A stretch of 24,055 nt of DNA from a virus. A program made the position numbers and the translations under genes. This document shows positions 1 through 21,500 of this stretch, piece by piece. A model generated the notes under the pieces. It was not told where the DNA came from. It did no database searches and saw only the letters and a list, made by a program, of their open reading frames with translations. The stretch is taken from the IMG/VR virus record IMGVR_UViG_3300044732_001271, positions 1 through 24,055 of that record; one strand, given 5' to 3'. Numbering within the stretch: the first letter of the stretch is position 1; each line of letters begins with the position of its first letter.

Positions 1-110
1 GGCTTGGCGGCCCCGGCGGTGAAGGAGGAAGCGAAGGCCTCTGGGGACTTATCTAGGCTGCCATACAAAAGTGAGGCAGGATCAAAAGGCGCTGTCGTGG
101 TGTCGGACAT
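1..110 (-). CDS. N-terminus of an unknown protein, truncated by the window edge
   Basis: A reading frame opens with ATG at 110 and stays open for 36 codons to the left edge. It begins MSDTTTAPFDPASLLYG and continues with a Ser/Ala/Gly-rich stretch. It follows a terminator and a plausible promoter, so it is probably the first gene of the next transcription unit. There is no Shine-Dalgarno sequence; the leader carries one copy of the 14-bp TAACTACACACAAT element also found before the portal gene and before the gene at 7107. The product is not recognised. The Thr/Ala/Pro-rich start would suit a structural or another polyvalent protein, but that is a guess. Confidence 0.6.
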   Translation of the reverse strand, partial: MSDTTTAPFDPASLLYGSLDKSPEAFASSFTAGAAK

Positions 111-119
111 ATTGGTTCT

Positions 120-148
120 AGTATTGTGTGTAGTTAAGAAACTGGCAA
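120..148 (-). promoter_or_regulatory. Putative sigma70-type promoter of the left-edge gene
   Basis: On the minus strand TTGCCA (148-143, 5/6 match to TTGACA) is separated by exactly 17 bases from AATACT (125-120, 4/6 match to TATAAT). It lies just downstream of the terminator and just upstream of the ATG at 110. If used, transcription would start near 113, giving an almost leaderless mRNA. The -10 box overlaps the repeated TAACTACACACAAT element, whose other two copies have no -35 partner, so the promoter reading is uncertain. Confidence 0.4.
123..136 (-). repeat. 14-bp element TAACTACACACAAT, copy 1
   Basis: Exact copy of TAACTACACACAAT on the minus strand, 12 bases before the ATG at 110. 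Unlike the other two copies, its TAA is not the stop codon of an upstream gene. Confidence 0.7.
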
Positions 149-166
149 GAGGAAGTTTTGGCAAGA

Positions 167-198
167 AAAAGCCCGCCTGGCGTTGGCCGGGCGGGCTT
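167..198 (-). terminator. Rho-independent terminator after the Tad2 gene
   Basis: On the minus strand a 9-bp stem AAGCCCGCC / GGCGGGCTT (198-190 and 177-169) closes a 12-base loop and is followed at once by TTT. It starts five bases after the stop codon at 204. This is the only strong intrinsic terminator seen in the window and marks the end of the long minus-strand operon. Confidence 0.85.
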
Positions 199-203
199 GG
201 GGC

Positions 204-551
204 TTACAGCGGCGTGGCTGTGCCTACCGTTTCGCCAGCCACGACATGTTCTCCGTGGATTTCCCAATCAGTCGCGAGGGAGTCGGAGCCGGAAGGCTGC
301 CAGCCATGGAGCGAGTTGTCAGGATACACGATGCAGAACTGATTCTGGTAGGTGATCGGAAGGCCAGTTCTACCAAGCCTGTCTTTCACCGCCTGCGGGA
401 GGCTGGTCATTTTTGGAATAATCTCAGCGGGCACCGATGAAGGCACCTGCCTGAACACGAACAGCCCTTTGCCGTTCCAGCCTGCACGACTGACGATTTT
501 GCCCTCTTTGAGGGCTTTGATTGCTTGCCCGAAGTTTTGATTTGGGATCAT
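204..551 (-). CDS. tad2: Tad2-family (DUF2829) protein, predicted anti-Thoeris signal sponge
   Basis: The 115-residue product matches the Thoeris anti-defence 2 (DUF2829) pattern. It has FGQAIKALKEGK near the N-terminus (residues 7-18), SRAGWNGKG (21-29), a central ITYQNQF...PDNSLHGW strand pair, and the closing LATDWEI (92-98). Known Tad2 proteins are phage-encoded and bind the cyclic ADP-ribose-type signal made by Thoeris TIR enzymes, which blocks NADase activation. I chose the ATG at 551, where homology begins; an upstream ATG at 701 would add 50 residues overlapping the glycosyltransferase gene without family resemblance. It is the last gene of the operon, 53 bases after the glycosyltransferase, and is followed by a terminator. 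Family assignment is firm; activity against Thoeris is inferred. The about 17-residue tail after the domain is not typical. Confidence 0.85.
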   Translation of the reverse strand: MIPNQNFGQAIKALKEGKIVSRAGWNGKGLFVFRQVPSSVPAEIIPKMTSLPQAVKDRLGRTGLPITYQNQFCIVYPDNSLHGWQPSGSDSLATDWEIHGEHVVAGETVGTATPL

Positions 552-604
552 AGGTAGTGATGTTGAATTGCGCTCAGCAATACCGGCCAAGCTCGGGCGT
601 GAGG

Positions 605-1273
605 TCATGCCTCGAAAACTGCGCGGTGCTTCTCCAGAAAGGCGGCCTTCTCGGCCAAGGGCACTCCGGCGGCATGAAGCACCTTGATACCGCCCTGCCA
701 ATCCAGCCAGCCACGATGGCAGGCATGGGGCCAGAAATTCCAGTCGTCACCTAAAAACATCATGTCCACGCCAGTCCTGTTCCAAGCGGCATTGAGGAGG
801 CTCTGTTCGGTTACGTCCTTCAAGACTGGCCCAATGCCCGCCCTGTGCTCGGCCATAAGCAGCCGGGCCAAGTCAAAGGCGGCCCTCACGGCTGGCTGGC
901 GGGCGTTGGCGAAGAAAAAGCCTGTGTTGCAGTAATTCTCAGGCGGGAAGTCCAGGGCCAGGGCGTCTGGCAGGCAGAACGAGTCCAGGGCCTGCCTGGA
1001 GGCGTCTCGGATGGCGGCCACGCCTGCAATGTTGCGGAAGGGGGCGAGGTCAAGAGGCTTGATAACAAGGGTATCTGCGTCAAAGAAACAAAATACGCGA
1101 TCCCCCGCGATCTCGGGTAAGGCGTATTTCCAATCATAGCTAGCCGGGTCGTCGGTAGTGAGGATGATGGCAGGCGCTCCGGTGTATTTTCTGAAACTGG
1201 CCGCCGCTTGGTGGGCCAAGGCCTCGTAGGGTTTGTTGCAGACAGTGATGCCTATGACGGGGGGCAGGTTCAT
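605..1273 (-). CDS. GT-A-fold glycosyltransferase (GT8-like)
   Basis: A 222-residue protein with the layout of a small nucleotide-sugar transferase. IGITVCNKPY lies at the N-terminus, a DxD metal/nucleotide-sugar motif at residues 65-67 (FFDADT), NTGFFFAN from residue 116, then an EQSLLN acceptor-side motif and a late HAAGVP segment. This order (DxD, NTG, EQ-LN, H-G) is that of GT8-type retaining transferases. There is no signal peptide or membrane segment, so it should act in the cytoplasm. It starts inside the stop codon of the methyltransferase gene (ATGA overlap), so the two are probably translationally coupled. The acceptor is unknown: phage DNA, a virion protein or a host surface sugar precursor are all possible. 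Confidence 0.75.
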   Translation of the reverse strand: MNLPPVIGITVCNKPYEALAHQAAASFRKYTGAPAIILTTDDPASYDWKYALPEIAGDRVFCFFDADTLVIKPLDLAPFRNIAGVAAIRDASRQALDSFCLPDALALDFPPENYCNTGFFFANARQPAVRAAFDLARLLMAEHRAGIGPVLKDVTEQSLLNAAWNRTGVDMMFLGDDWNFWPHACHRGWLDWQGGIKVLHAAGVPLAEKAAFLEKHRAVFEA

Positions 1274-2481
1274 GTGATGATGAGCAAAAACCTTTGATCA
1301 TTGATGGGCGAGCATTGAAGCTCCTTGCCAACGAACACTTCGCGGAATTTCCCCATCCACCACTCTACGGGCCGCTGTGTGCAATGTGCATTCTCGCCTG
1401 TTGCCAGTTTTTGGGCAGCCGGACCGGTGTGGACAGTGATAGCCCATACTGGAGCCAGAATTTTCATTTGGTTGAGAAGATCCGTAACCTCTTCTTCTGG
1501 AATGTGCTCCATTACCTCAAAACACAAGCCTGCGGAGTGCTCCATTTCGGGAAGTTTGTCGATGCCGGGAATAGCGGGGTCGTAGCGTGTGACTTTGCCT
1601 TGAGGCCATAGCTTTTTCGCGTCTTGCGACTGCCCGCATCCAAAGTCAATGACTGGACTACCGTCTTTGATTGGCGGCAGGAGGCCAAGTAGCTTTTTCT
1701 TGAAGCCTTCGGACATGCTGCCTGTGCCATACTTCTGTGAAGCATGAAGCTGCTTATAGAGGCTGACCTTGCTGCCTGCCGGACTGGCGGGCTTGGCTGA
1801 CCAAAGGCGGCGTGGATGGATGCCAAGTTCAATTAGGCACCTACCCCAAGGCGTTGAGGCTTGGGCATTCACCAGCGTGTCGGCCCATGGCTCTAAGGGC
1901 TTGTCGAGGGTCAAAAGACGGGCCATGACATAGAGCGGCACTGCATCTGCCGCTACTTCGGCAAAGCGCAAGGGACGCTCCTCAGGATTGACGTTGGCCC
2001 ACATTGACCGCCATGCCTGAATTGAGTTTCTGGCAACGCTTGCAAAACTTGGGTCGTTGTCCAGGTACAAGGCGTAGCTGTAGAGGGCCATGACACGCAG
2101 CACATTTGTTGCGATGCCTGGATGAGTGGTGAGGTCGTCGCCTGCAAGTGAGTCTAGGATGACTTCGGCTAGATTCTTCCAATCATCGTTATTGTGGAGG
2201 ATGCACAAATAGACTTCGGCGGTGATGAGTGAGTACCGCCAACGAACGGCCATGCCTTGGCTTTCGATGCTGCCGGTGTCGATAGGAAAGATTTTCTCCA
2301 GCCAGTCCTTGGCTGTAATCTCGCCGTCTGTGGCACGGTATGTTAGCCAGCATTTAGCGTGCGCTCTTTGCTCCGGCGTGTAAGCATCCCGTGCGTTGTC
2401 ACCATTGTTTAAAGCGTCCCATGCAATGGCGTATTGCTCGCCTTTTGGGGTTGTCGAATTTGGGTTGAGGCTTGAAATCAT
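1270..2481 (-). CDS. SAM-dependent methyltransferase with a long helical N-terminal region
   Basis: A 403-residue protein. The C-terminal third is a class I methyltransferase: motif I VIDFGCG at residues 277-283, an acidic strand end (VTRYDPAIPGID) as motif II, a FEVMEHI motif typical of methyltransferase-11/23 families, and a closing ENAHCTQRPVEWW segment seen in phage methyltransferases. The first about 250 residues are alpha-helical, with no domain I recognise; they look repeat-like and could bind a substrate. I chose the ATG at 2481, which gives an ATGA overlap with the 84-aa gene; the ATG at 2508 would overlap that gene by 31 bases. It is coupled to the following glycosyltransferase. The substrate (small molecule, glycan or protein) is not evident; there is no DNA-methylase DPPY-type motif. 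Confidence 0.75.
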   Translation of the reverse strand: MISSLNPNSTTPKGEQYAIAWDALNNGDNARDAYTPEQRAHAKCWLTYRATDGEITAKDWLEKIFPIDTGSIESQGMAVRWRYSLITAEVYLCILHNNDDWKNLAEVILDSLAGDDLTTHPGIATNVLRVMALYSYALYLDNDPSFASVARNSIQAWRSMWANVNPEERPLRFAEVAADAVPLYVMARLLTLDKPLEPWADTLVNAQASTPWGRCLIELGIHPRRLWSAKPASPAGSKVSLYKQLHASQKYGTGSMSEGFKKKLLGLLPPIKDGSPVIDFGCGQSQDAKKLWPQGKVTRYDPAIPGIDKLPEMEHSAGLCFEVMEHIPEEEVTDLLNQMKILAPVWAITVHTGPAAQKLATGENAHCTQRPVEWWMGKFREVFVGKELQCSPINDQRFLLIIT

Positions 2482-2732
2482 AAGGTTTTTAAACGTGACA
2501 CTGCCCACATGCCCGGCACATCCAAGACAACAGTGTGAGAGCCCGCCACACGGCGAGCCTTGGAGAAAAGCGTTTCTGCGTTTGGTTCTTCATGGTCGGG
2601 TAAGCCGATGCCGCGCAGGAATACTTGCCACATGGCGCGGGTAAGAACGGTAGTGACGTGGTGGTGATCTTTCCCATGGGCGGCTTTGGCGACTTGCCGG
2701 TGCAGTTCAAAAGCTACGCGCTCCTCGGTCAT
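2478..2732 (-). CDS. Unknown 84-aa protein between endolysin and methyltransferase
   Basis: This small soluble protein has a His-rich patch (KDHHH) after a helical N-terminus and ends in a basic segment. It overlaps the endolysin stop by ATGA at its start and the methyltransferase start by ATGA at its end, which fixes both ends and argues strongly that it is real. An ATG at 2789 would overlap the endolysin gene by 61 bases and is rejected. There is no signal peptide, membrane segment or domain I recognise. Confidence 0.6.
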   Translation of the reverse strand: MTEERVAFELHRQVAKAAHGKDHHHVTTVLTRAMWQVFLRGIGLPDHEEPNAETLFSKARRVAGSHTVVLDVPGMWAVSRLKTL

Positions 2733-3517
2733 GCGAAGTTGAAGCGAAGGAAACAACGAGCCACTTCCTGCGGGCGGTTTTTCTCCCAACAGCCATCACC
2801 GTCCCGCTCGCCAGCCGGGCCTGTGTTGGCCTCAATCGTGGCAATGCGGCCCTTAGCGGGCTGGCCAGTGACTAGGCCGATGTGGGAAAAGTCGAAAATT
2901 ACGATGTCGCCTTTCTGCGGCGTGGCGGTGTCGGGCAGGACGGTCACGCCCTTGGCCTTCTTGGCCCAAGCCTGCCAAGCCCAGGCCCCAGCGGACTTAC
3001 AGCGCCATTTCTCGAACTGCTCGGCGGTCATGCCTGTCAGGCTTTCCAGCAAGCCAGCCTTGGCTAGCTCGTCGCCTACCGTGTCCAGCCAAAAGGCCAT
3101 GGCTGCCGCGCAGTAGGGCTCTCGGTTACTGTAGCCTTCTGGGTAAGAGGTAGAGGGCCAGAATCGTTTGATCCATGCGCCTTGGTTGTTGCGGGGCGTC
3201 TCTACCTTGCCCACGTCCCGCTTGGCGATAGTCACCAGCCAGTCGGCGAAGCTCGGGCCTGTGGCAGGCTTGGCGGCAGGCGGCACAACCTTGGTTGGCG
3301 GCTGGAGGGCGGCCCAGGTGGCCGGGCCTGCGATGCCGTCGGCGGTGAGGTTGGCGTCACGCTGAAATCTGCGTATGGCGCTTTCAGTAATTGGCCCCAA
3401 CTCGCCGTCTAAATAGGCTTTGAGATAGCCAAGATCTTGTAGGTGGCCTTGAAGGAGTCTGACTGCCGGGCCTTTATCGCCTCGGCGGAGGGTGGGTGCG
3501 TCGGGTGTCGTGCTCAT
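2729..3517 (-). CDS. Endolysin: peptidoglycan-binding plus CHAP amidase/peptidase
   Basis: This 262-residue protein degrades peptidoglycan at lysis. Residues about 8-72 form a PG_binding_1 domain (LRRGDKGPAVRLLQ, FQRDANLTADGIAG). After a Pro/Ala linker (about 73-88) comes a CHAP/NlpC-like cysteine peptidase domain. It has Cys136 in PYCAAAMAFWL, His212 in SHIGLVTG and a downstream EANTG segment that could supply the polar third residue. GDIVIFDF just before the His is the usual CHAP strand. There is no signal peptide, so export would need a holin. It follows two tiny proteins and a two-TM protein, the expected lysis context. It starts 12 bases after the 39-aa gene. Confidence 0.88.
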   Translation of the reverse strand: MSTTPDAPTLRRGDKGPAVRLLQGHLQDLGYLKAYLDGELGPITESAIRRFQRDANLTADGIAGPATWAALQPPTKVVPPAAKPATGPSFADWLVTIAKRDVGKVETPRNNQGAWIKRFWPSTSYPEGYSNREPYCAAAMAFWLDTVGDELAKAGLLESLTGMTAEQFEKWRCKSAGAWAWQAWAKKAKGVTVLPDTATPQKGDIVIFDFSHIGLVTGQPAKGRIATIEANTGPAGERDGDGCWEKNRPQEVARCFLRFNFA

Positions 3518-3649: not shown

Positions 3650-3804
3650 GGCGGGAAGAGTTGAAGGCGAGCCATCCACACGCAGAACAGCACACGCTCA
3701 AAGAACGAGGCGTTCCGGCAGAACTGCCACGAATGCCGCAGTAAAGCTGGCAAGTAGGCTAGGCGCTGGCCGAATGGGCGGCGGCGGAGGATTGTGGGCT
3801 TCAT
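3646..3804 (-). CDS. 52-aa basic protein of unknown function
   Basis: The product starts with an Arg-rich segment (ILRRRPFGQR), has two cysteines, and ends with a hydrophobic stretch (FFERVLFCVWMARLQLF). It overlaps the stop of the DUF1353 gene at its start and the start of the 39-aa gene at its end, both as ATGA. This continuous coupling is the main evidence that it is translated. The hydrophobic stretch is short for a full TM helix. The function is unknown; its place in the lysis block is the only clue. Confidence 0.5.
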   Translation of the reverse strand: MKPTILRRRPFGQRLAYLPALLRHSWQFCRNASFFERVLFCVWMARLQLFPP

Positions 3805-4286
3805 GACTTCTTGAATATCCTGCCGAAGATCGAAGACGGCCTAGCCCAGCCTTGCGGGCCAAAGGCAGCCACGGCCCGGCCCATGAGGGCGGCCTTGCGG
3901 GGGCGGACGCCTGCTTGGAGGAGGCGGTAGTAGAAATGGCGGTGGACCACACAGGCGGGCGGGGCGGCTGGCAGGTTGCCTAACTTTTCGACTAGCCAGT
4001 AACTGCCGCCAGTCAGGAGGTCGCAAAGAAAATCGTGCTCAAGGGCTGGCATCGTACAGAGGCCGTCTGGCGTGTAGTTGAGGGGCGGCCCCCAGAAAAT
4101 GGGTGGGATGCTGGCTTTGTCGAACTGGTAGCCTGCTGGGATGGTAAATTGCTGCTCTACCGGCCAGATGCCAGAGCATATCTTAAATGTGTACTCTTCA
4201 TCCGTCTGCCACGTCGGCCCCTTAGCCCACGGTAGCAGGCCAAAGCCGGGCTCGGGATCTCTAAGGCATGTGATGTCAAGATTCAT
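3801..4286 (-). CDS. DUF1353 family phage protein
   Basis: A 161-residue protein with the DUF1353 signature. IPAGYQFDKASIPPIFW corresponds to the family's IPxGFxTDxASIPRxFW, followed by a conserved LEHDFLCDLL (usual AxxHDxLY) and a helical HRHFYYRLLQAGVRPRKAALM segment. DUF1353 is common in tailed phages near tail and lysis genes; its biochemical role is not established. Both ends overlap neighbours by ATGA. The Arg/Lys-rich C-terminus (RIFKKS) is not a domain. Confidence 0.8.
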   Translation of the reverse strand: MNLDITCLRDPEPGFGLLPWAKGPTWQTDEEYTFKICSGIWPVEQQFTIPAGYQFDKASIPPIFWGPPLNYTPDGLCTMPALEHDFLCDLLTGGSYWLVEKLGNLPAAPPACVVHRHFYYRLLQAGVRPRKAALMGRAVAAFGPQGWARPSSIFGRIFKKS

Positions 4287-4672
4287 CGGGGCGGGGATGT
4301 TAAGGCGTTGCGCATGGCCTGCTTGGCGATGTCATCGAAGTATTCCACCTGTTTCTCACTTGTTTCGTTGAGCTTGTGCAGGGCTTCTGTGAGGCTATTC
4401 AATGCGTCAAGCATCTTGGTTGCTCCCCACCAGATCACCGATGCTAGAGAGGTGAACAGCACAACGATAGCCACGATGAGAACGCCGTAAAAGCTCCATT
4501 GCCCGGCCTGCTCTGGGCTAGGCACCTGCCCCGTGAAGGCGTGCCAAGCCATTTCAGCCAAGGCTATTACCGAGGCCAGCCCGGCGGACATGGCGGCCAG
4601 GATGGGCGCGGGGATCTCAGTGAGGGCGTGTTGGACTGGTGGCGGGATGTTCATTAAGTGGATGCATTGCAT
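4283..4672 (-). CDS. Two-TM membrane protein, candidate holin
   Basis: This 129-residue protein has hydrophobic helices at about residues 24-46 and 62-90, followed by an amphipathic, probably coiled-coil, C-terminal helix (MLDALNSLTEALHKLNETSEKQ). Two TM segments with a charged soluble tail, placed a few genes before an endolysin, suit a holin or antiholin. No named holin family is recognised. The ATG at 4672 follows the matrixin stop by 6 bases; an in-frame ATG at 4654 (MNIPPPVQ) is a good alternative start. Confidence 0.6.
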   Translation of the reverse strand: MQCIHLMNIPPPVQHALTEIPAPILAAMSAGLASVIALAEMAWHAFTGQVPSPEQAGQWSFYGVLIVAIVVLFTSLASVIWWGATKMLDALNSLTEALHKLNETSEKQVEYFDDIAKQAMRNALTSPPR

Positions 4673-6741: not shown

Positions 6742-7107
6742 TTAGCCGGGGATGGGTGCCCAGATGACACGGACAGAGACGCTGGCCGTGCCGGTGGATG
6801 TGACAGTAAGCGCCTCGCCAACTTCGGTGACAAACAAAGGCGTCTGATTATCAGGACTGCCACGATTACTGCCGCCGTTGGCCGCCGCATACTCGGGAGC
6901 GTCAATAGCGGTGGAGGCAGAGTTGAAAGTCACCACGGCGTCTGCGGAAGCCCTGATCTCGACGTAGAACACCGCGATTCGTTTGCTTGCCACAGCGGCC
7001 ACAAGTTCCTCGGCTGTATCAGGTGAGGTGATTGTCTCAAAAGCGCGCTGCTTTTGGATGATGAGCCCACCCATGTAGTGGTAGTAGTTTTGGGGGTAGC
7101 GTTCCAT
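6742..7107 (-). CDS. Beta-rich putative virion protein, 121 aa
   Basis: After an N-terminal MERYPQNYYHYMGG the protein is strand-rich (IAVFYVEIRASADAVVTF, TPLFVTEVGEALTVTS, ASVSVRVIWAPIPG), with the Ser/Thr/Val content of a small beta-sandwich. Position between portal and fibre suggests a head-decoration, head-tail or fibre-associated protein. No named family is recognised. Its ATG is the last part of the 14-bp TAACTACACACAAT element, so start choice is clear. Confidence 0.65.
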   Translation of the reverse strand: MERYPQNYYHYMGGLIIQKQRAFETITSPDTAEELVAAVASKRIAVFYVEIRASADAVVTFNSASTAIDAPEYAAANGGSNRGSPDNQTPLFVTEVGEALTVTSTGTASVSVRVIWAPIPG

Positions 7108-7119
7108 TGTGTGTAGTTA
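7106..7119 (-). repeat. 14-bp element TAACTACACACAAT, copy 2
   Basis: Exact copy. Its TAA is the stop codon of the 118-aa gene, and its final AT are the first two bases of the ATG of the 121-aa gene, so it fills the whole junction. Confidence 0.75.
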
Positions 7120-7479: not shown

Positions 7480-9549
7480 TTATCGGGTGGGCGGTTCTTG
7501 CGGAGGCTGGCCTGCCTCGGCCTCGGCTGCCATGGCTTCTGCCTGGGCCTGGGCCATGACGGCGGTGGCCTGCTGGATGGCGGCTAGGGTGGTTTCGGGG
7601 TTTGGCTCGCCGATGCCTTTGAGGATGTCGGTGTATTGGCGCATCATGGCTTGCTGCATGGGCGGGGCCATGGCGGCGAACTGGTTAAGCACGTTGATGA
7701 TGGCTTGGCCGACTTCCACCATTTGCGAGCTGTGCGACTTGGTGAGGCTGATTTCAAAGACGTTGCGCACGTCCTCGGGGAAGCCCTTCACCCACTCAAT
7801 CAGCACCATGGCCTTGTCTTGACCCACTTGCTTAATGAGGGCCGCCAGCCCGGCCTCGGTGTTCGTCATCGTGTAAAGCTCGATGTCGATAAAGTCGTTG
7901 AGCATGGCTGTCAGGCCTTCCACGACTTCGTTTTCTCGGGCGCGCAGGCTTTGGTTGCTGGTGTTTTCGAGGATCTTGGCAACGCCTAGCGTGTCCTGGC
8001 CCGGCACGTCGGCCACGGTGGAGTCGGCGGGGCTGGTCAGCCCGGCGTTGATCTCGGCCCGGCCAATGAAGCGGTCCATGAGCGTAGAGAAGATTTCCAC
8101 GTTGGCGGGCTCTACGGTCTTCACGGCCATGGCGTCGTCGGCGGTGAAGCCTGCGCGGAGTTGGTAGCCTTCGGAGTTGCGGAACTGGATACCGCCGCCG
8201 TCGATGCCCTGCTGTGTGGCTAGGGGGTTCTCAAAGAGCACGTTGCCGGAGGTGTTGGCGTCAAATTCGATGCGGTTTAGCATCTTGTCGGATACTTCAT
8301 GCCAAGTGTCCAAAAGCTCGTAGTAGCCTCGGCCTGTCCAGCGGTGCAGTTTTGGCCAGATACGGTGGTCGGTATAGGGGTGCGGTGCCTCCTTGTCTGA
8401 CCATGGCAAGATGATTGTGGCGTATTCGTAGTGAATGGGGATTTTAGCGTCCCAGTCAATCAGCACATAAATGGGCTCTGCGTAGCCGTCGCCGTCGGCA
8501 TCGTAGCGAATCCATGTCTCTACATAAACGCGGGTGCGGAAGCGTTTAGGATCTTCCGTGGCTGGGCGCATGGAGGCTTCATTCTCGCCATCGCGGACAC
8601 GGTTTAGATTGGCGCGGACGGTGTAGGTGGCGGTATCTGCCCCGCCTGTCAGATTGCCGGTCTTGGCCTTGTCGTTGTAGTCGTCAAACGCCTTTTTCTC
8701 GCGTGTCTCGGGCGCGTAGCCAATGAGCAGGTCGCCGGGATTGGCGGCGAAGACGTGGCCTTTTAAGGGTGAAACGTCGAGGTTCTCGGCGTTGATGTGA
8801 CAGAAGAAGTCCCCGTAGTGGATGACTTTAGTTTCTGCACCTGGCTCCTTGCTGGTGCGTTGCATCACAACCTTGGGCTTGGAGATTTGCAGGGCCGCCC
8901 CTACGGGCACAAAAATAGCCGGGTCACGCTCCAATACTTGACGGTCTGGATAAGCTGGGTCGGCAATCCATTTGTCAGTCGATAAAACAGGCTGGCCTTG
9001 GCTGTCTTTGATGACTTTGCCGTCCAGCGTGACGCTTTGGGTAACGACGGGCTTCATGTAATAGGCCTCGCTTAGCCCGGCCCGCGTGATCTCCTGGCCT
9101 CGGATGAGGCTGCCTTGCTTGGCCTTTTTGCCCACCTCGTTTAGCTTTGTGAGCTTGGCGCGGTGCTTGAGGCGCTGCATCAAAATCTCAATCGCCGGGT
9201 TTTCGTCCTCGGCTCCCTCGGCGTTTGGACCAAAAAAGGCGGGCGTAGAAAGCAAGTCGTTGTCCATCTTGTCGCCGTGCTGGTTAACCGGCGTCATAGG
9301 CAGGTTCAGCGATAGGTTTGTCTCGCGGAAAAGCAGGCAGTTGGCCTTACGGTGCTCGAAGTCCTGCTCATAGGCTAGCTGGTAGTTGTCCCAGCGCCAA
9401 AGGAGAGAGCCAACGGTGTAATCTCGGCTGGTGGTCTGGACGCCCATAAGTTGGCGGCAGTTCTCCACTTCGGCGATGACATACTGAACGAATGCGCTCT
9501 CGGCGTCGTCACTTTCAAAGGCAAGATGGGAGTTTATGATGCGCTGCAT
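7480..9549 (-). CDS. Portal protein (podovirus P22/N4-like type)
   Basis: This 689-residue protein should form the dodecameric portal through which DNA is packaged and ejected. Portal-like traits are the long size, RYDADGDGYAEPIYVLID (from residue 348), a trait of podoviral portals, the ALSLN-like wing region and a Gln/Ala/Glu-rich helical C-terminal barrel-like tail (MAQAQAEAMAAEAEAGQPP). The N-terminal stretch with NCLLFRETNLSLNLP is followed by NPAIEILMQRLK. No membrane segment. It lies 16 bases after the polyvalent gene; podoviral ejection and portal genes are often adjacent. The start ATG follows CTACACACAATATCGA and has no Shine-Dalgarno sequence. Confidence 0.8.
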   Translation of the reverse strand: MQRIINSHLAFESDDAESAFVQYVIAEVENCRQLMGVQTTSRDYTVGSLLWRWDNYQLAYEQDFEHRKANCLLFRETNLSLNLPMTPVNQHGDKMDNDLLSTPAFFGPNAEGAEDENPAIEILMQRLKHRAKLTKLNEVGKKAKQGSLIRGQEITRAGLSEAYYMKPVVTQSVTLDGKVIKDSQGQPVLSTDKWIADPAYPDRQVLERDPAIFVPVGAALQISKPKVVMQRTSKEPGAETKVIHYGDFFCHINAENLDVSPLKGHVFAANPGDLLIGYAPETREKKAFDDYNDKAKTGNLTGGADTATYTVRANLNRVRDGENEASMRPATEDPKRFRTRVYVETWIRYDADGDGYAEPIYVLIDWDAKIPIHYEYATIILPWSDKEAPHPYTDHRIWPKLHRWTGRGYYELLDTWHEVSDKMLNRIEFDANTSGNVLFENPLATQQGIDGGGIQFRNSEGYQLRAGFTADDAMAVKTVEPANVEIFSTLMDRFIGRAEINAGLTSPADSTVADVPGQDTLGVAKILENTSNQSLRARENEVVEGLTAMLNDFIDIELYTMTNTEAGLAALIKQVGQDKAMVLIEWVKGFPEDVRNVFEISLTKSHSSQMVEVGQAIINVLNQFAAMAPPMQQAMMRQYTDILKGIGEPNPETTLAAIQQATAVMAQAQAEAMAAEAEAGQPPQEPPTR

Positions 9550-9554
9550 TCGAT

Positions 9555-9568
9555 ATTGTGTGTAGTTA
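9555..9568 (-). repeat. 14-bp element TAACTACACACAAT, copy 3
   Basis: Exact copy. Its TAA is the stop codon of the giant polyvalent gene, and it ends 5 bases before the portal ATG. Confidence 0.75.
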
Positions 9569-12500
9569 TGGCGTGGCTGTGGCTTTGTGCAAGCCCATTG
9601 CGTGGGCCTGTGCCCTGGCGGCGGCCATGGCGTCCTCGCGGGCCTTCTTGAAGGCCTTGATTAGGCTCTCTCCGGGCTGGGCCTTCTCGCTTGGCATGGC
9701 CTTGGCGGCCACCTGGGCGGCCTTGGCGGCGTATAGGCGGCCTGCCAGCTCGGCGAACTGGCGTTTCTTGGCTGGGTCTGTGATGGGCACTGGCTTGGCT
9801 TTGCCGGGAGGATCGGCGGTGTAGTCGTCGCGTTGGAGCGGTTGCGGGCTCCAACGTTTGGTTGGGTGCAGGCGGTTGGCGCGGTAGAGGAGGGCGTCAG
9901 GCTGTGGCGTAACCTTGGTGTTGGCCTGGAATAGCAGGCGGGCAGGCGGCGTGAAGGCTTTGGGCAGGCGCTCGCCGGTTGTGCTGATTTTGGGCTGGGC
10001 GGCGAAGACTGGCAGTTTGGGGGCAATGGTGGGGTTTGGCAGGGCGGCATAGCCTGGGCCTGCCGTTGTGCGCTCGCGGAGCACGTCGTCCATGTTGCGG
10101 AGCGGCTGCTTGATGAGATTGGGAATCACGTTGTTCATCAGCATTTTTACCCCGGCGTTTTGGTCGGGGTTCTCACGCTTCTCTTCCACATCGCGGACAA
10201 ACTGCATGGCGTTGGCGAAGCCTTGCAGGAATGACTTGTCTTCCAGTGACGAGACGAGACTGGACAGCATGTAGGTGGTGTAGCTGGCGTTTTCGCCCTG
10301 CGACTTGAGGCGTTTGACCTCCTGATAATTGCGGTAAGCGTCGATCCACGTTGTCAGCGTGGTGGCGGCTGGCTCGTAGCGGCCAAAGGGCAGGCTGCCA
10401 AGCACCTTGCCCTTGCCGTCTTGCCAGACAATGGAGTTTTCGCCTCCGTATTTGCGCAAGAACTGGTCTGTGGCGGCCCTCTCCTTGAGGGAGTGCGAGC
10501 GCGTGCCGACGAGCAGCACAGGCTTTTCGTCGTCGTTGTCGTCGCCCTCAAGCATCGAAGCCAAGGCCAGCCAGCCGAGGCCAGCCAGCAGCGTCTCGGA
10601 GGCGTCTTTGATCTGCATTGCCTTCGGGTAGGATTTGATCACGGGCACGCCATCCTTGCCCATTGCCAGCCAGCCTGCCCGAGTCAGGCCGTAGAGCAGG
10701 CTGATAGCCGAGCCACCAGCCTTTTTGATGCCTGCGCGGACGATGTTGGTCGGAGTGCGTTGGAAGGGGAATATCCAGCGCATAAGGCTTCCCACGAATT
10801 TACGGGAGCGGATGCGCTTTTGGAGCTTGGCGGCAAGGTCGGAGTCGCCTTTGGCCTCGGCTTCAGCTAGCAGCTTCTCCAGGTCTTTAATGCCCTTGTA
10901 GCCGCCTAGCACGGTGTCCACGATCTCGGTTGCGGAGTTGTCGTCTTGGAATAGCAGTTCCTCGGCGGTCTTCATCACCTCGCCCCATACGGCGCTGGAT
11001 GTGTCGTTGAGGGTGTTGGCAATCTCGGTGTCGATGAAGGCGGCCCTAGCCTGCCCTTTCAGGCCTTGGCGCTTGGCCTCCACATGCGCCCGGCGGTAGG
11101 CCACGGCTGATGCTTCGGCATACATGATGGCCGTCTTGAAAAAGGCGTCTGTGAAGCGGAGCACACGCCCTGGCAGGCGGCTGATTCGGCCTGCCTGCCC
11201 GCCCACGCTGGCGCGGATGTTGCCCACTTTGTCGAGGTCGCCGTCCACTACGTCGATTTCCAACGGCTGGCCGAGGTACTTGTGGCGGATGGTATCGCCT
11301 TCGGTGAGGAAGGTTTCGCGGGCCATTTCAAAGGCTGGGCCGATGCCTTGCCAGAAGCCTTTTAGGATGTGCTTGAACTCGCGGAACTGTGGCGCGTTCG
11401 GGTCTTGGTAGGCAAGGTTCAGCGTGGCCTCGGCTAGGCGCTGGCCGGTGTAGTGCCAAGCGACTTGGGCGGCGTTGCCGGTGATGTTCGCCACCTGGGT
11501 CTGGGGGCCGGACAGGAGGGGCCAGTTGATCCAGTATTCGTAAACCTTGTCGAAGGCGCTAGCCTTGGCTGCGGTGTATTCGCGAGCGAAGGCGTAGTAA
11601 TTAGCCATGTCGTCGGGGTCGAATGGCACGAACACGCGCACGCGCTGGCCGCCGGGTGTCATCACCACCTTGGACATGAGCTTGCCGGAGTTGCGGGCCT
11701 TGGCGGATTGCAGGGCGTAGGCCATGACGCGGTTTACCTCAGCGGTCACGTCGTCAACGGTCTGGCGCTTGCCTTTGATAAGGGCGGGCTGGGCTTCGAT
11801 GGCCTTGGGCGGCAGGCGGAGGCTTGACGGGCTTGCCGCATTGAACCGCTGGCTAAGCGGGATGACAGCGCCAGATTTGTCGCGGACAACGGGTTCAGCG
11901 TTTTCCTGATTCCAGTTGAACTCATTTTGCCCCACGGTCTTACCTTCTGCTTTTTCTACTCTAGGCTCAACTAAAGAGTGCATCCCCAAATCAGAACGCC
12001 AAATCCATCGGTTTCCAAACGCATCGGTGGTAAATCTGGTGGTAGGATCGCCTGATTTATCAAATGGGTATTCCTTTCTGTATTCAGCGTTTAGCTGTTT
12101 GTAGTCTGAATCTTTTGGGTTCCGAATGACTTCAATACCATTAAGGTTGTGAACCTTTCTTGGCATTAGTCTCGTCTCGTCCACCATACGCTGGGCCTTC
12201 GCTAAATCCCCAGCCTGCACAGCGTCCATGTACTCCTTGTCCAGCCCGCCATCTTGGCTAGGCGGCAGCCCCAGCCCCACGGCCTTCTTGATCTTGGCAA
12301 AGCCAGCCTTAATAAGGCCGCCAAAGCCGGTGCCTGCCTTGACCTGGGCGGCCACGGCGGGGCGGATGATGGCGGCGGTGGCGTCGTGGATGAACTTGCC
12401 CACATCGTCTTGGTTGAGGTTGAGGGCGTTGGCAATGTGTTCGTCGGAGAAGCCTCGGAAGGCTAGGCGCATGATGTTGTAGCCGTCGTTGTCTTTGCCC

Positions 12501-15500
12501 TTGTAGGCTTCCAAGCCTGTCTTGACGGCTGGGAGGTCTAGGATGGCGGATTGGAGGGCGTGGCGGTCTGTGCCGGAGAGCATGAGGTCGTCTTCGGTGA
12601 CTCCCATGTTTTTAAGCACGGCTTGCTTGATCTTCTCGCTTTCGGCGTCGTCCTTCTCCAACAATTCCTCTTTCGTCTCTTGGGCGCGGGCCGTCTTTAG
12701 CGCGGCCTCCACGTCTGCCCGGCGGCTGCCCCGTGCCTCGGCTAGCTCGGCTTCCAGGCTGGCGATGCGGCGGGCCTTGCCTGCGGCGGTGGGAAGAATA
12801 CGGAGTTTGCGGCGGACGGCCTCGCTGGGGCCGAATACGATGTCGAGGGCTTTGGTCCAGCGTTCTTGCGGAGTTTCCAGCGGGTCGCGGCGGGCGCTCA
12901 TGGCCTGGGCTAGGCGGGTGCCGGTGTCGAGGTAGTAGTTGCCTACCTTGTTGAGGAGGGCGCGGATGTTCTTGTCACCTGTCAGGCGGGCCTCGCGGGT
13001 GAGGAACTGGAAGGCTTGGCCTAGCACGGCTTGCTCGTCCACGTCGAGGAGCTTGCTTTCTTCGGCCATGTCGGCGGCCCACTGCACGTACTTCTCGGGG
13101 TCGCTCTCGAAGGTTTCCTTTGCCCACTTGCGGAGCTTGTCGAGTTGCACGGTTTCCGGGCCGCCTAGCTGGTCGCGGGCGGCGGTGAGTGCTTGATACA
13201 CGGCGCGGGCTTCGGGATACTCGAACTGCTTGGACAGGTTGCGGGCGCTCATGGCTCCACTTGCCTGCACGGCGTCGATGGCGTCAGGGTCGTTGCGCAG
13301 AGCCTCCCTGACGGCTGCCTCTTCCTCGGCGAGGCGTTGCTGCTCGGCCATGAAGGCGGCCAAGTCTGGGTCGGCCTCTTCGTCGGCCTCGGGCTGGCGG
13401 GCCTCTTGGCTGGCTGCCGGGCCGCCTTCTGGGGCGGGCGGGTTGCGCAGGATGGAGGGGCTGGCGGGGTTAAAGCGTTCAGAGAGAGGGATGACTTCGC
13501 CGGACTCGTCGCGGGTCACGGGGTCAGCTAGCTTTACCCTGACGCTCTCACCATTTGGGAGAACGGCAGACACAGAACCAGCGTCTTCACCTTCATTTGT
13601 ATAAAAAGCCCCACGCTTTCTCTGTATTTTGCGGTTTGCGGCTGCATCCGAGATAGGCGAGCTTCGCGTGTTGGTCATTTCGCCAACAATGAGGACAGGT
13701 CGCAACCAAGGCTTCCAAGTTGGATCAACAGGAACGCTTTTGCCTACGGTTGGCATTTTTGTCGGGTAATAGTCCGCATTCGGAGCGTCCGTGTTGTATC
13801 CGCTAAGTCGGTATTTACCAAACTGCCCCGAGTTGATACGGTCTTTCCCTGCGAGCAGAGTTTTCCCATACTCGCGGCTACCATCCCACCCCTTGCCGTC
13901 TGCTGGGATGCCAATGCGGGCCTCTAGCGCCTCTGTGGCTGCTTGGCGGGTGCCGATATGAAGCCCGGTAGTTCCGCCCTGCAAATCGCCGGAAGGCGTG
14001 CCGTGCCACATTGCGCCAACGCTTGCTAGTTTTTCGTCCACCATGGCCTGAGCCTTCGCCAAGTCCCCGGCGGCCACGGCAGCCAAGTACTCGGCGTCCT
14101 GGGCGGGCGTGACGGCCTGCCCGGCTGGCGGCAGGGCTAGGCTGGCTGGCTGGCCTTTGTCGGCGGGCCGGAACATGCGTAGGTCCACCGTTTCTGTGGC
14201 GTATTGGCCGCCTCTTGTTGGCGAGACTGTAATAATGCCGTCATAGCCTGCGGCGGCGATGGCCTTGGAGAGCACCTTGCCCTTTTTGCCACCAAATCTT
14301 GCGGACAGCCTTTTCTTCCAGCCGTCTTCACCATATCCGCGCCACTCTAGGACTAGCGGCGATTTGAAAGCGATCTCCCCGTACTCCAGTGATGGAATCG
14401 CGTTTGTGGCCTCCTTACTCACTGGCGATAGGTAGCGCCCGGCTGGCTCGATGTCCTGCTGGAATGTAGCGCCCGCACGGAATGCAGGCGTGTTGTTCCT
14501 GGCGTAGTTGAAGGTAACTGGCTCGCCTGAGCGAATGGTTTGTTTCGTCTCTAGGTCGTAGAACTCTGCGACTTCGCCAAGCTCATCCTCGGCTGGTGGC
14601 AGGCTAGAGCCTTGGCTGGGCGGATTGTAAAGCGCCACACCACTGTCGGTTTCGCGTGTCTTGATGGTGGCGAACAAGTCGTCAAATGCCTTGGCGACTG
14701 GCTCAATTTCCTCGTCCAGCAAATACGGATAGCGGCCTGGATCACGAACAAAGTCCTCAATGCGGACGACGTTGGCGAGGTAATCATTCTGATACCCCTT
14801 CTGCTGCATCTTGTAGATGACGTAGTTTTCAAAAGAGCGGGCGGCACGTTCAATAGTGCTACCCCAGTAGCCCTGCTTACCCTTGTCATTGAGGCTGGCA
14901 CGCTTTGCCATTGGCGAATCGTCCAGCGCCTTAACGAGCGCGGTGAAGGCTTCCTCTACTTCGGGGCGAACACCTTTTTGGAGTTTCCAATCTGCCTCAT
15001 TGCTGATGCGTCCACGACCATCTTTGATCTCGTTCCATCGTTTGACGGAGAGCGAGTGACCTGTCTTCTCGTTCACATACCGGGTTTCTGGCTCGTTTGT
15101 GATGTAAACACCTGCATTGTTCTTGATGGAAGCACCACGGGCGCGGCCAAAGTAATGGTCGAAAGCGTGGAACAGCTCATGCGCCAGCGAACCGGCTCCG
15201 CGTGTTTTGGTGAGGTTGATGACCAGATTTCCTGGCTCGTAATGGGCAGATGCCCAGCCTTTGCCCCGCGAGCCAAAGCCAAGGCCAATTTGCCCGTTGA
15301 GAGAAAGCGCCTTGGTTGGAATACTGAGGATGCTGGCGAGGTCGTGGAGAGCGTCATACGCCTCATTCATCATGCCTTGGCGCTCTTTCGCATTGGCTCC
15401 TTGGCTTACCCAGTTGCCGAACTCCACGCCACGGAAGCCGAATGCCTGCGCGAACATTTCCGGCGTGGCATCTTTGCCTTTACGCCAGTCCTCGGCAGTG

Positions 15501-18500
15501 CGTGGGCGGTTCTCGGTTTTGCGGAGGTCGGTTTCTTTGATGTTGTCGCGCTCCTTGACGCCTTCCCATGCGGCCACGAGATCCGCATAGTTGCTCGTGA
15601 CGTAGGCCAGCGCCTCCTTTGAGTCCTCGAAGGTCTTGAGTTTTCGATAGAGTGGATCACCCTTCTTGTTGATGCCCCACTTGCCAGTGCGTCCGCGCAC
15701 CTCGAACTGCATCTTAGCCTCTGCCTTGCCTTCTGAGACTTTGGCAACCACGGCCTCAAGAAGGGTGTCGAGATTGTCGGCCCGGACACGGCGACCATCC
15801 ACCTCTGCCTCTGCGTGCGGGGATGGAATTTTGGTCATGTTGCCCACACCTTCGCCATACCTGTAGGCATCTGGATAGTTGCGCACTTCGCCGATGCGGT
15901 CCCATTGCGTGCGGTCGATACCTTGCAGTAGTGCCACCTTGTCGGCCAGTGCTCCAAGGTTGTATTTCGTGCTTCGCAGCATGGAAATCATCTCAGGCAC
16001 ACCCTTTTCTGTGGCGTGGCGCATGAGTTCCTTGACCATCTTAACTTTGGCTACCCATGCGTTCAGTTTGTAGCCTTTCTGTGGCTTCGTTGGGATCACA
16101 CCACGCAGAGTCGTCGCGAAGGCCGCGAGTTCATCGTCTTCGATGCTGGCAATTTCCGACTTTGGCCAGATTTCCGAGAGCGTCTTGCCTGCAATCTCGT
16201 CGTCGCTGAGTTCTTCGTTGACGGTGGCAACCTTGTCTTTGCGAGCACCACCGAGTTTCGCGCCAAAGTCGGCAATCCCGGCCTCAGCCTTGGCAGGCTT
16301 AGCCCCGCCCTGCCCTTCGGGGGCTGGCGCTTGGGCAGGCTGGGCCGCCTCTTGGCCCGGCTGGGCGGGCGGGGCGGCTGCCGGGCTGGCTTGGCGGAGG
16401 TTTTGATAATACATCGTCCCACCTTCAGACACTACCTTCACCTCGTAGAGGGCGGCGTTTGGACCTTCGAGGGTTTGTAGTGCTAGGCCATCTTCTTTTT
16501 TGCGGCCAAGCTGGCGGTCGGTGCCACGCTCATACCATTTGCCGCCTTTGCGGTAGTAGGCTGGGCCAGATGGCATGACTTGGAAAATGCGTTTTTCATC
16601 CTGAATGCGTGCGTCTTCGCGTAGTGCATTCATCCTACTCTCCATCCTTTGCTTTTGCTCCGCCTCAAAACGAGCGATGTCTTGGCGCTTTTCCGCTGAC
16701 TCCTCAATGGTGAGCATGTGAGGCTTGCCTTCTTGGTCGATGTAGCCAAGCCGCTTCTCCCCCTGCCGGTCCATGTAAACCCATGGATCGCTTGGGAGCC
16801 TGTGAGTGGTGGTTTGTGGGCGGTCGTAGCCTAGCCCCTTTTTCAGAGCTTCGGCGGCTTCTGCTTTAGGGAGTTGCGCTAGAATCCTCTCTTGTTCCAG
16901 GGTGAGGTCCAGCAACAGTATCTCGTCACTGTCTTGGGCCGCAGCCCCAGAGGTGGAAGTTTCTGACTGGTCGCCGTCAGGTTGAAGTGTCTCAGGTTTG
17001 CGTTGAAGTTCGCTTCCCTCTCCTGCCACGTCAGGGGCGGGAGTGCTTGCCGCATTGCTACGGCCTTGGCCTTTAACTGGCTTTTGTTGCGTTGCATAAG
17101 TGGTGGCGGCTGCCGGGCTGGCCCATTTCTCCAGGCGGACGGCTAGCTCGTCGGCGTTCAACTGCCAGAACTTCGCGTCCATCTCCAAGGCTCGCCTCAT
17201 GCGGGCGGTGGCCTCGGCAATGTTGCGATTGTAGTTCTCGCCTGTCTGCTCGTAGGGTGCGGCGATCTCTAGCAACTCTTGGGGCGTCTTGCCTTTGTAA
17301 GGCGTGTCGTCTTGGGTGCGCAGGGCAACGGCCTTTGGCTCGGCTGGAGCCTCTGCCGTGACGGGCGGGGCCGGGCGGGCGGGTTGGGGCGAGTAGGCTG
17401 CCGCTCCGTTGATGCGCATGGGCATGAGCACGAACAGGGCGTTGCCTGCTCGGAGGGTGGCGGGACTCACGTCGTCTTGGATGCGTAGCTCAATCTGCTC
17501 GTGGCCGAGGTTGCGGGCTACGCGCAGGATGGTTTGGAAGTAGTCAGGGTTGTAGGCGGCAAGGATTTGGGCCTCGGGCTGGATGTTGTGGGCGTAGTCG
17601 CCTCGGTTGACATCGCTGGCGAATAAGCCAAGGCTGCCGTCGGGGTTGCGGTAGAGGGAGACGGCTTTGGAGGCTGTTCCTGTTTCGCCGGGCAAGTCTT
17701 TGATGACGGCGCGGGCTTGGCTCATCAGGCTGAACCAGCGGGCGGTGTCGAGGGTGTAGGGCGTGAAGGCTTTGTCATCGGGGATGATTGCCTCCATCGT
17801 TGGATTTTGTTCACCTTCGGGCCATGGCTGCGCATTACCTTTTTCGTCATAGACGATAGCCTCTTGGCCTTTACCTCCGCCATTTTCATGCTCTACACGC
17901 ACAGCAAAGCGGCCATTGGTTGCCCAAAGGTAAGCGCCTTCACCTTTTACTTTTTGCAAACCTTCGCCGCGTGTCGTGTCCGTGGACACCATCGGGAACA
18001 CCGCCGCCACCACGTCCGCCGTGGTCTTGGCCTTCTTGAGGGCTGGCACCGCTGTAGGGGCCTGGGCCGTGGGCTTGGCTGGCAGGTCGTCCTTGGCCTG
18101 CGAGACGGGGAACTTATCGGCCTTCTTCTGGAAGCGGTAGAGGGCTTCTTTCTCGTTCAGGATGGTGAACGTACCGTCGCCGGGCACTTCAATGGTGACG
18201 TAGCCAATCAGGCGCTCGGCATCTGCCTTGGCGGCGGCTAGTTCGCTTGCATACGTCTTGCGCTCCTCTTCGTTGAGGCTGTCCCAATTACGAAACTTGT
18301 CCTCAAGGTTGGTAATCGCGTCCTTCTGTTCCTGTGTCATGTCCGCCCGCTTTGGCGCGGCCTTCACGGCGGCAGCCACCTCGGCTAGTAGGAACTTCTT
18401 CTGCCCCTTGGCGGCGGCGGCATCGAACGGCGCGGCCTGCTTGGCTGGCTCAGGCATGGCGGCCTCTTCGGCTACGGCCTCGGCCTGGGCTGGCGTTACG

Positions 18501-21500
18501 GAGGCTGGGAGGGCCGGGACTTCTTCGGCAGTCTCTTCCTCTTTGATAAGCATTTGACTGTCGCCAAACGGAACGCCATTCAAAACCTGCTGGTCTGTGA
18601 GCTTGTTGACGCTGTAAAGCCCATAGAGTGAATCGCCGATTTTGAACAATCCTGGCAGAACCTTCGTTACGGGCGCATTGCCTCCATAGTAGGCGCGGAA
18701 CCACTTACTCACCATTTCAGCAGTGACGGGGACGTTTGCCTCTGCGGTGGTAGGCGCTTCTGGCGAGGTTGCTGGCGGCATTGTCGCCTTGAGGCGTGCA
18801 ATCAACTGAGGGGCTAAACTTTTGGCGGTGCCTTTGTAGTTCGGGTTAGCCAATAGGTCGATCAAGTAGCCTTTGGCGTCGTCGGATGCGGTTCCTGCCT
18901 TGAGGTCTTTGAGGGCTGCTGCTCGGCTGCCGTCTGAGTTCTCCGAGGCAAAGAATCTACTCAAGTCCGCCCAAAGCGTCTGGTCGGCCTTGGCAGCCAC
19001 GGGGGCTGGGCTGGCCTGATACACGGCCTGCCAGTCGGGCTTTTCTTCCAGTGTGGAGTCAAAGCCGGTCATCAGCCGCCAAAAGGCCCGGCTGTATTGG
19101 CGAAGCTGGCCGCCTGGGGCTAGCTTGTCGAGGCGGGCGGCTAGCTCGGCTGGCGTCTTCACGCCTGCGTCAACCAGCACAGAGGCCGCCTTCATCATGG
19201 CGTCTCGGCGGTCGCGTGGTAGGTCGGTTTGCTCTAGGCTGCCCTGCGGGGGAAGTCGGAGGCTTGCTTGATTGCTTGGCGGCAAGAACAGCCCAGTAAA
19301 GGCCTCTGCCAAGGCCTTGTCTGCCTCATCGGTTTGGCTGGCCTGGGCTGGCTCTGCCTGCGGGGCGGGCTGGGCTTGGGCTGAGGCGGCAGGCTTGGCG
19401 CTTTTGGCGTTGGCTGCCGTCATGGTCAGGATAGAATCTGCCGTGCCTTCCCATCGCTGCCAGTTGATGTCCTTGGGGCGCTTCCGGTTGTGGTTGCGCA
19501 CCATTTCGTGAGCGTCTGCAATGGCGATCTTCAACGCCTCGTCAATGTCTTTACCCTCGCGAACTGCCCGCTTCATGGACATGAGGGCATCGGCGGCAAT
19601 CCGGTCGTTGGCGTTTTCCGCACCAACGGCGATACCTTGCCCGCCTTCATAGGGGCGTGAACGCTCGTCATATCGGCGAATGGCGGCGTCAATGACTTTT
19701 AGCGCCTCGTCTTGGCTAGCCGGTGCCTGCGGGGCAGCCTCCGGCCCGGCCTGTATCTCCAGCCCGGCCTTGGCCTGGGCGGCGTTTGCCATGAGGGCGT
19801 CAATCACCTGGGGCTTGGTGGCTTTTTTATCCAACTCAATACCAGCCTTCTTGGCCTCGGCTTTGAGTGTGAAGATGTCGGAGGCCTCTAATTCCACGCG
19901 CATCTCTGCAACCTCGTCGGCGGGGAGTGCCGCTATTTGGTCGGCGTAGGCATCGCTCCCTTCAAAGATGTGTGTGTCGAGATACCCGCGAACGTCGCGC
20001 AGGGTTTGAAATTTGCGCGTGTGGGCACCGTCAATGACTTCGTACGCCCCCGGCTTACCTTGGACTGTAATGTTTGCGTCACCTTTTCTTGTGACGTGAG
20101 TGTTGCCAATAAGCGCCCATGGCTTTGGTGTTGCGTTGCGGATGCCATGGGACTCTCCATAAGCCATGGCTTCGTCTAGCGTTCTGAAACTGCGCCTAAG
20201 CTCGCGCTCTGATCGGCCATCGCCGTCTTTATCCACTCCCACCTCAAAGATAGATTGCCCTCTGTTTGTTGGGCGGATCTCCGAGATATAGAAAGCGGCT
20301 TTATCATCCTTCGTTTGGATTTCCAGCCCGGCTTTGGTGGCCATGTCGGCCACGATGGCCTGCACGGCGTCGGCCTCGGCCTCGATGCGGGCGGCCTCGG
20401 CTTTGTCGGTGACGAGCTTGGCGATGTCGCGGAGCTGGGCCACGAAGTCGCGGAGCAGGGCCATGAGGCGGTCGCGGAAGGCCGGGTCTTGGCTGGCCTC
20501 GATCTCGGCTTGGTTGCTGATCTTGCCGCGTAGGCGGGCTTCGACTAGCTGGGCGAACCATTCGTGGGCGGCGGCGAACTCTTTGCCTGCTGTGCCCTCC
20601 TGCTGGAAGTCGGTTAGCCCGCTGTCGGCGAGGTAAAGGGCCTTGCTGGCGGCTTTAGCCTCGGGGGTGAGGAGATTGTAAAGGCCGATGATCTTGGCTC
20701 CGTCCATGTTGCCGATGGCGGCCTTGTGGATGAACTCATGGAGAATGAACACGTCCATAGCCTCGCGGCCTGCCTCGGTGGTGGCGTGCTTGGCGGTGAG
20801 GCGGTTGATGAGCTTTTCTGGGTTGATGAAGAGGATACTCCCCTTTCTGCCCACTGGCTTTACCTCAAGCTCGCCGCTCTTTGCGCGCAGATCCTTGGCG
20901 TAAACGTCAAAGTCCACGGCCCCCGCCATGGCCTTGAGCCGTGCCCGCAGGCGCTTGGCGAGGTCGAGCTTGCGGGCGGCGAGGTCTTTGGCGGCCTTGC
21001 TGGGCTTGCCCACCAGAGCCTTGCGCACCTCGGCCTCATACTCGGCTAGGGCGGCCTCTGCCCGGCCCTCTGGCGTGGCTGGGCGGGGCGGCTGGGCGGG
21101 CTGGGCCTGTCTTTTCGTGCGGATGGCCTGCCAGTATGTAGGCTGCACCATTTTGTTGGCTTCCACATTTGCAGCGGCGGCTTCAAATGTCTCATCGCTA
21201 GCGATACGTCTATTAGCTACCTCATTGGCAATACGGCCCTCAGAAGGCAAGCCTGCCGATTGTTTCAGTATCTCGGCTAACCTTTCGGGCGAGTCCGTGC
21301 GGCGGGCCTCACGCTCAAGAAGCTCGCTCTTTTGGTAATCTGATTCGGTCCAGTCTGCCGCCTCCGCCTCCGCCTGCCCGGCTGGCTGGCTGGCTGGGGC
21401 CGGGCTGGGGGCGGCCTCGTTGGCACGAATAATGCGACCGCCTTCCTCTAATTCTGGGGCGTAGTCTCCTAATTTGTAAGGGCCTTCAATGACTCCATCA

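Follow-up and report, generated by a model that had tools for sequence, protein, structure and literature searches.

Why should a Tad2-type anti-defence gene lie behind the lysis genes of a virus, and what would it do there? A sequence-only reading of this locus, starting from the premise that anti-defence genes are usually early, took the gene to close a late operon and offered three ways out: a weak promoter of its own, protection during late infection, or carriage as lysogenic or prophage cargo. The window, by which we mean the whole stretch of DNA analysed, is the whole virus contig of 24,055 bases; no cellular genome lies behind it. Nearly all of its genes are carried on the minus strand, in a run that leads from a 4,826-aa polyvalent-type protein through portal, fibre, metalloprotease, putative holin, DUF1353, endolysin, methyltransferase and glycosyltransferase-like (GT-like) genes to the Tad2 gene, whose position would be called late by gene content. 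The main features are:

7480..9549, minus strand: portal protein (SU10 type), where the late gene run starts (PF23899, 3.3e-11)
4283..4672, minus strand: putative holin, with no family match
3801..4286, minus strand: DUF1353 gene, which follows the putative holin
2729..3517, minus strand: endolysin with PG_binding_1 and CHAP domains (Pfam)
1270..2508, minus strand: methyltransferase-domain gene (PHROG 24759, 6.9e-11)
605..1273, minus strand: GT-like gene with a DAD motif, without family match; left border of the slot described below
204..551, minus strand: Tad2-family (DUF2829, PF11195) gene of the long-insertion type, 115 aa, with a low-confidence C-terminal tail
1..110, minus strand: 5' end of a scaffold-like gene, cut by the contig end (100% identical over 36 aa to L093:20505-21398)

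As to the upstream neighbours that had been named earlier, an endolysin and a methyltransferase on the same strand were recovered, whereas the glycosyltransferase assignment has no family match behind it. The idea that the Tad2 gene ends the late operon did not survive the analysis: the scaffold-like gene starts at 110 on the minus strand, and in a relative (L109) the gene behind it encodes a major capsid protein (PF13252, 3.6e-12; PHROG 334). Intact versions of the scaffold-like gene encode 297 aa (L093:20505-21398). We call it scaffold-like for its position and composition, as profile searches gave no family match; a possible identity as Tad4 was rejected, the only match being weak and at noise level (E 0.29). 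The late region thus continues past the Tad2 gene, which lies where the lysis/GT genes give way to the head genes.

At the other end of the run, the polyvalent-type ORF (9566-24046, minus strand) makes up 60% of the contig and contains, on the same strand, a tRNA-Met at 23122-23196 (ARAGORN; Rfam 48 bits). A relative carries a tRNA-Met at the corresponding place (L180:5229-5303), and the alignable sequence stops at the tRNA.

Family, fold and predicted ligands

Read from an ATG at 551 to a TAA at 204-206 on the minus strand, the ORF encodes a protein that matches the Tad2-like family PF11195 at 4.4e-19, with 69.2 bits against a Pfam cut-off of 25. A longer protein, starting from an ATG that overlaps the stop of the upstream gene, was considered and rejected: in L009 the leader is not in frame with the gene, and in L010 an extension is impossible, as a stop codon immediately precedes the ATG. 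The start at 551 thus holds. Compared with five homologues, dN/dS values of 0.04-0.14 show that the gene is under purifying selection, and all residues that are invariant in an alignment of 39 homologues (F7, G17, R22, G24-F31, W84, S87, D90, D95 and W96) are kept in the window protein. Homologues on bacterial contigs are more distant, with 48-55% identity, and a search for the host by way of Tad2 relatives gave nothing above 55% identity.

By sequence the closest solved protein is SptTad2 (8wjd, 1.4e-18), followed by HgmTad2/AcrIIA7. An AlphaFold2 model of the monomer (pLDDT 83.7, falling below 50 only in the last 14 residues) finds its best fold match in 8wjd with cGG (TM 0.81, Z 13.4 over 100 residues); next come HgmTad2/AcrIIA7 (Z 12.2-12.6), then ModTad2 and SPO1 Tad2 (Z 10.6-12.1). 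All top matches are Tad2 proteins, and unrelated folds score at Z of 5.0 or below. The Tad2-type (DUF2829) identity proposed from the sequence is therefore borne out by profile and by fold, the latter through the comparison with Tad2 structures that had been suggested as a check, here run on the monomer. The gene itself is an ordinary, well-supported new member of its family.

An insertion gives a hint as to which signals the protein may bind. The segment at about residues 35-62 is present in the window protein, SptTad2 and HgmTad2 and missing in SPO1-like members; 100 residues of the model align to the 101-residue SptTad2 chain, and SPO1-like sequences are gapped at the insertion. Tad2 binds cyclic dinucleotides (CDNs) via the beta2-beta5 insertion, separately from the gcADPR pocket (review, PMC12043709), and 3'3'-cGAMP is not bound by SPO1 Tad2 (PMC11722364). 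From these reports and the long insertion of the window protein we predict by analogy that the protein is more likely a dual sponge for Thoeris and CBASS signals than a purely anti-Thoeris one, with fold and insertion length as the guides to the ligand class. The earlier label "anti-Thoeris" was right as to the Tad2 family and would be too specific as to function, the insertion being as long as in the Tad2 solved with cGG.

Two observations concern the protein ends. The C-terminal peptide of the window-type Tad2 (V.A.ETVGTA..L; window 204-260) recurs at the opposite end, the N-terminus, in further Tad2 proteins (L012, L014, L017), where the versions read MEVASETVGTANALV- and MKEANETVGTAKQLV-; it looks like a short tag that has switched protein ends. 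Elsewhere, many Tad2-like domains stand fused behind an N-terminal segment (GYLVEY..GY.SWSP...FE.AYRE) in L021, L028, L030, L031, L039, L046, L070, L071 and L080, and another N-terminal segment precedes the Acb2-like domain of L146 and L147.

An exchangeable slot ahead of the head genes

Close relatives were gathered from IMG/VR by portal, scaffold, GT-like and Acb2-like searches. The variable part in all of them is the gap between the GT-like and scaffold-like genes, for which the following alleles were found:

Tad2: 8 contigs (the window and seven others), in three haplotypes, 90-99% identical
Acb2-like: 2 contigs (L091 and L116), 51% identical to each other
HNH endonuclease: 5 contigs
Unknown 79-aa protein (u79): 4 contigs (L096:20392-20631, L097, L098 and L104)
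Empty: 7 contigs, with about 43-66 bases between the genes

As contigs may repeat one population, these numbers are better read as haplotypes, of which there are about three for Tad2, two for Acb2-like, one each for HNH and u79, and four empty. The Tad2 gene occupies an exchangeable one-gene slot before the scaffold and capsid genes, and it is this sponge slot, with its shared ends ahead of capsid genes, that makes the locus of interest. Both ends of a 61.8-kb relative (the contig of L087) fall within the slot region; this contig may represent an entire permuted genome.

The Acb2-like occupant scores above the PF24729 cut-off of 27 in both contigs (29.7 bits in L091, 34.4 bits in L116) and matches Tad1 by profile at 1.5e-5. 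Its model (pLDDT 69.5) has no significant match by Foldseek, and its similarity to Vs.4 (Z 7.3) and Tad1 (Z 5.5-5.9; VIA-align) lies within the background of helical hairpins. Among the examined records with one sponge type in the slot, mostly fragments, the second type was found nowhere else. Two unrelated sponge families alternating in one slot, with cassette ends in common and the capsid gene close by, would be natural evidence that their jobs are interchangeable. The content of the slot also offers a route to new anti-signalling genes. One candidate is u79, which begins MPYILQETPDESCVYRS..., fills the slot in a related subgroup and has no Pfam, PHROG or phage match. An alignment of the Acb2-like group (L131-L159) further displays a strongly conserved tail, NPYP.S..P....VIEPTADGLKL.

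Three local signals mark the two ends of the cassette and the start of the next gene:

572..604, minus strand: 33-base 5' block common to the Tad2 and Acb2-like cassettes (from the alignment)
163..198 (about), minus strand: intrinsic terminator at the cassette 3' end (-23.9 kcal/mol, z -3.25; T tract)
120..148, minus strand: promoter-like site of the next gene, TTGCCA..AATACT with TAACTACACACAATA, kept in all slot alleles

The 33-base block stands directly after the upstream stop and is 88-100% identical among Tad2 and Acb2-like alleles, even though the haplotypes agree at only 40-79% of positions over the final 300 nt of the upstream gene (94% in the closest pair, the window and L002). The block is absent from the empty, HNH and u79 alleles. 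On paper it can form an RNA hairpin with a 7-pair stem, a candidate that we rejected, as the window version folds otherwise and the z-scores are weak. The terminator hairpin starts 5 bases past the Tad2 stop codon, in agreement with the earlier statement that the gene is terminated immediately afterwards, and a mismatch in its stem made a simple scan overlook it. Its counterpart in L091 (-24.2 kcal/mol, z -4.39) keeps the stem with changes on both sides. Like the 5' block, the terminator recurs in the Acb2-like cassettes, and it is absent from the empty and HNH alleles. The simplest reading is that the exchanged unit consists of a gene, the fixed 33-base block and its own terminator; in having the last, the Tad2 cassette behaves as a moron does.

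Downstream of the cassette the motif TAACTACACACAAT(A/G) appears at 122-136 and again at 7105-7119 and 9554-9568 (all minus strand), three occurrences against 0.18 expected. It immediately precedes the scaffold-like, orf121 and portal genes, and twice its TAA doubles as the stop codon of the gene before. Is it a late promoter or a start-site signal?

Placement in other phages and timing

Sponge genes beside head genes are also seen where the rest of the genome differs. The Tad2 genes of L008, L010 and L011 are nearly identical (85-90%) to that of the window, and these records have no other window gene in common with it. In L010 the order is Tad2, a scaffold-like gene and a PF19821 capsid gene; in L157 a PF12236 connector is followed by an Acb2-like gene and by scaffold-like and capsid genes of the same kinds as in L010. 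DUF2829 directly follows the capsid gene in Klebsiella phage PWKp9B and comes after lysis genes in Pm86, AP1 and Louie. The annotated phages sampled, a set of 15 that is small and not random throughout, have DUF2829 in a lysis/capsid module (4/15), near the terminase (3/15) or elsewhere (8/15). The premise that anti-defence genes are usually early thus holds poorly for DUF2829, for which late placement is common, although not a rule. The two sponge types also meet: Acb2-like and DUF2829 genes adjoin in Tenacibaculum phage Gundel_1 (L185) and lie close together in L149 and L156, the Tad2 match in L156 being weak (1e-6).

We consider it probable that the window carries a Tad2-family sponge in an exchangeable slot before the scaffold and capsid genes of an uncultivated tailed phage, transcribed together with the upstream late genes. 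By analogy with its solved relatives, the protein would form a tetramer and sequester host immune nucleotides. ADP-ribose-type Thoeris signals would be held in a pocket between subunits and CBASS cyclic dinucleotides, for example cGG, in a second site through the long beta2-beta5 insertion. The sponge would be made at about the time when the capsid protein, a Thoeris trigger in other phages, appears. Related phages would have an Acb2/Tad1-hairpin sponge in the slot, or nothing.

Several published results bear on this sequence of events. The major capsid protein triggers staphylococcal and streptococcal Thoeris (PMC12578639), and phages lacking acb2 escape CBASS through capsid mutations (PMC10419184). 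A late action of the sponge, with its timing read from gene content and the lack of a recognisable promoter, would fit the published sensing of capsids by Thoeris. Moreover, Acb2 triggers Panoptes, as SptTad2 does slightly (PMC12657218), and SptTad2 is, among solved proteins, the one most closely related to that of the window. Where sponges become a liability in this way, swapping and loss would be favoured, and the presence or absence of a sponge in the slot fits a trade-off against sponge-activated Panoptes. More doubtful is the further proposal that phages of this group keep a dedicated slot because the capsid protein triggers Thoeris and CBASS. The sponge would then be made together with its trigger, and recombination in the shared leader and terminator would exchange the alleles (Tad2, Acb2-like or empty) when hosts turn to other signals or possess systems such as Panoptes that penalise sponges. 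The slot makes one question testable: is a sponge needed only late, once the immune trigger appears?

Alternative explanations and known systems

The gap might instead be a harmless insertion site with no meaning for timing, in which the phage keeps any small gene that happens to land. We regard this as quite possible, if somewhat short of an even chance: HNH and u79 genes take the same gap, DUF2829 is found in many other contexts, and accessory genes of Pseudomonas Mu-like phages cluster in regions of plasticity (PMC4378225). Against it stand the 5' block and terminator, which Tad2 and Acb2-like cassettes have in common and other alleles lack, and the recurrence of a sponge beside scaffold or capsid genes in the unrelated L010, L157 and PWKp9B. 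Expression independent of the late genes, from a weak promoter in the 53-base gap between the Tad2 and GT-like genes (552-604), is unlikely. A conserved block in this gap and a terminator belonging to the cassette, as in morons, would suit such a promoter, but a scan for sigma-70 consensus sites found nothing promoter-like there. Furthermore, the TAACTACACACAAT motif is absent from the gap, no promoter-like core is conserved across cassettes, and the spacer right before the start codon varies between them in length and sequence. As far as these signals tell, the Tad2 gene most likely lacks its own promoter and is read with the upstream late genes.

Lysogenic cargo that protects the prophage-carrying cell is the least probable of the explanations weighed here, even though Tad2 homologues are known in prophages (PMC12043709) and distant ones occur on the bacterial contigs mentioned above. 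The family records, which are mostly fragments, contain no tyrosine integrase (19 records) and no serine recombinase (11 records), the 61.8-kb relative included, and no relative of the portal protein was found in 84,980 genomes. A portal search of INPHARED likewise gave no relatives of the phage. With neither a promoter-like site found in the gap nor signs of lysogeny, protection during late infection is the best fit among the three options first put forward. Very unlikely, too, is an anti-CRISPR role, suggested because the closely related HgmTad2 was deposited under the name AcrIIA7, which denotes a type II CRISPR-Cas inhibitor. Structures 8kbi and 9kzr, which bear that name, match the window protein at 4e-15; yet the HgmTad2 structures 8kbj and 8kbk contain bound cADPR and cGG, and the alternation with an Acb2/Tad1-type protein in the slot speaks for nucleotide signals.

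Among known systems, the preferred reading of a late Tad2-family sponge in an exchangeable slot is closest to SptTad2 (8wjd) and HgmTad2/AcrIIA7 (8kbi, 8kbj, 8kbk), which are about 38% identical to the window protein and have the same fold and long insertion. The motifs GWNGKG(L/M)F and, towards the C-terminus, W..S..D....DW are common to all three. What sets the window protein apart from the two others is an additional C-terminal tail (HGEHVVAGETVGTATPL), modelled with low confidence, and its place in a late-gene slot. SPO1 Tad2 (8sme/8smf) and ModTad2 (9eib) have the same core fold without the long insertion, and a relative of SPO1 Tad2 in Bacillus phage Goe10 sits among a cluster of small genes. 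Acb2 (Vs.4) and Tad1 are sponges for the same signal classes with a fold unrelated to that of Tad2; in comparison with them, the Acb2-like occupant of the slot consists of the PF24729 hairpin only, plus its conserved NPYP...VIEPTADGLKL tail. Fixed sites with changing anti-defence genes are already known from Mu-like phages: the anti-CRISPR region of Pseudomonas Mu-like phages (RGP G) likewise keeps a fixed place in which anti-defence genes vary among relatives (PMC4378225). Its genes and their target are others, whereas the slot described here lies directly in front of the scaffold and capsid genes and alternates two sponge families within shared ends.
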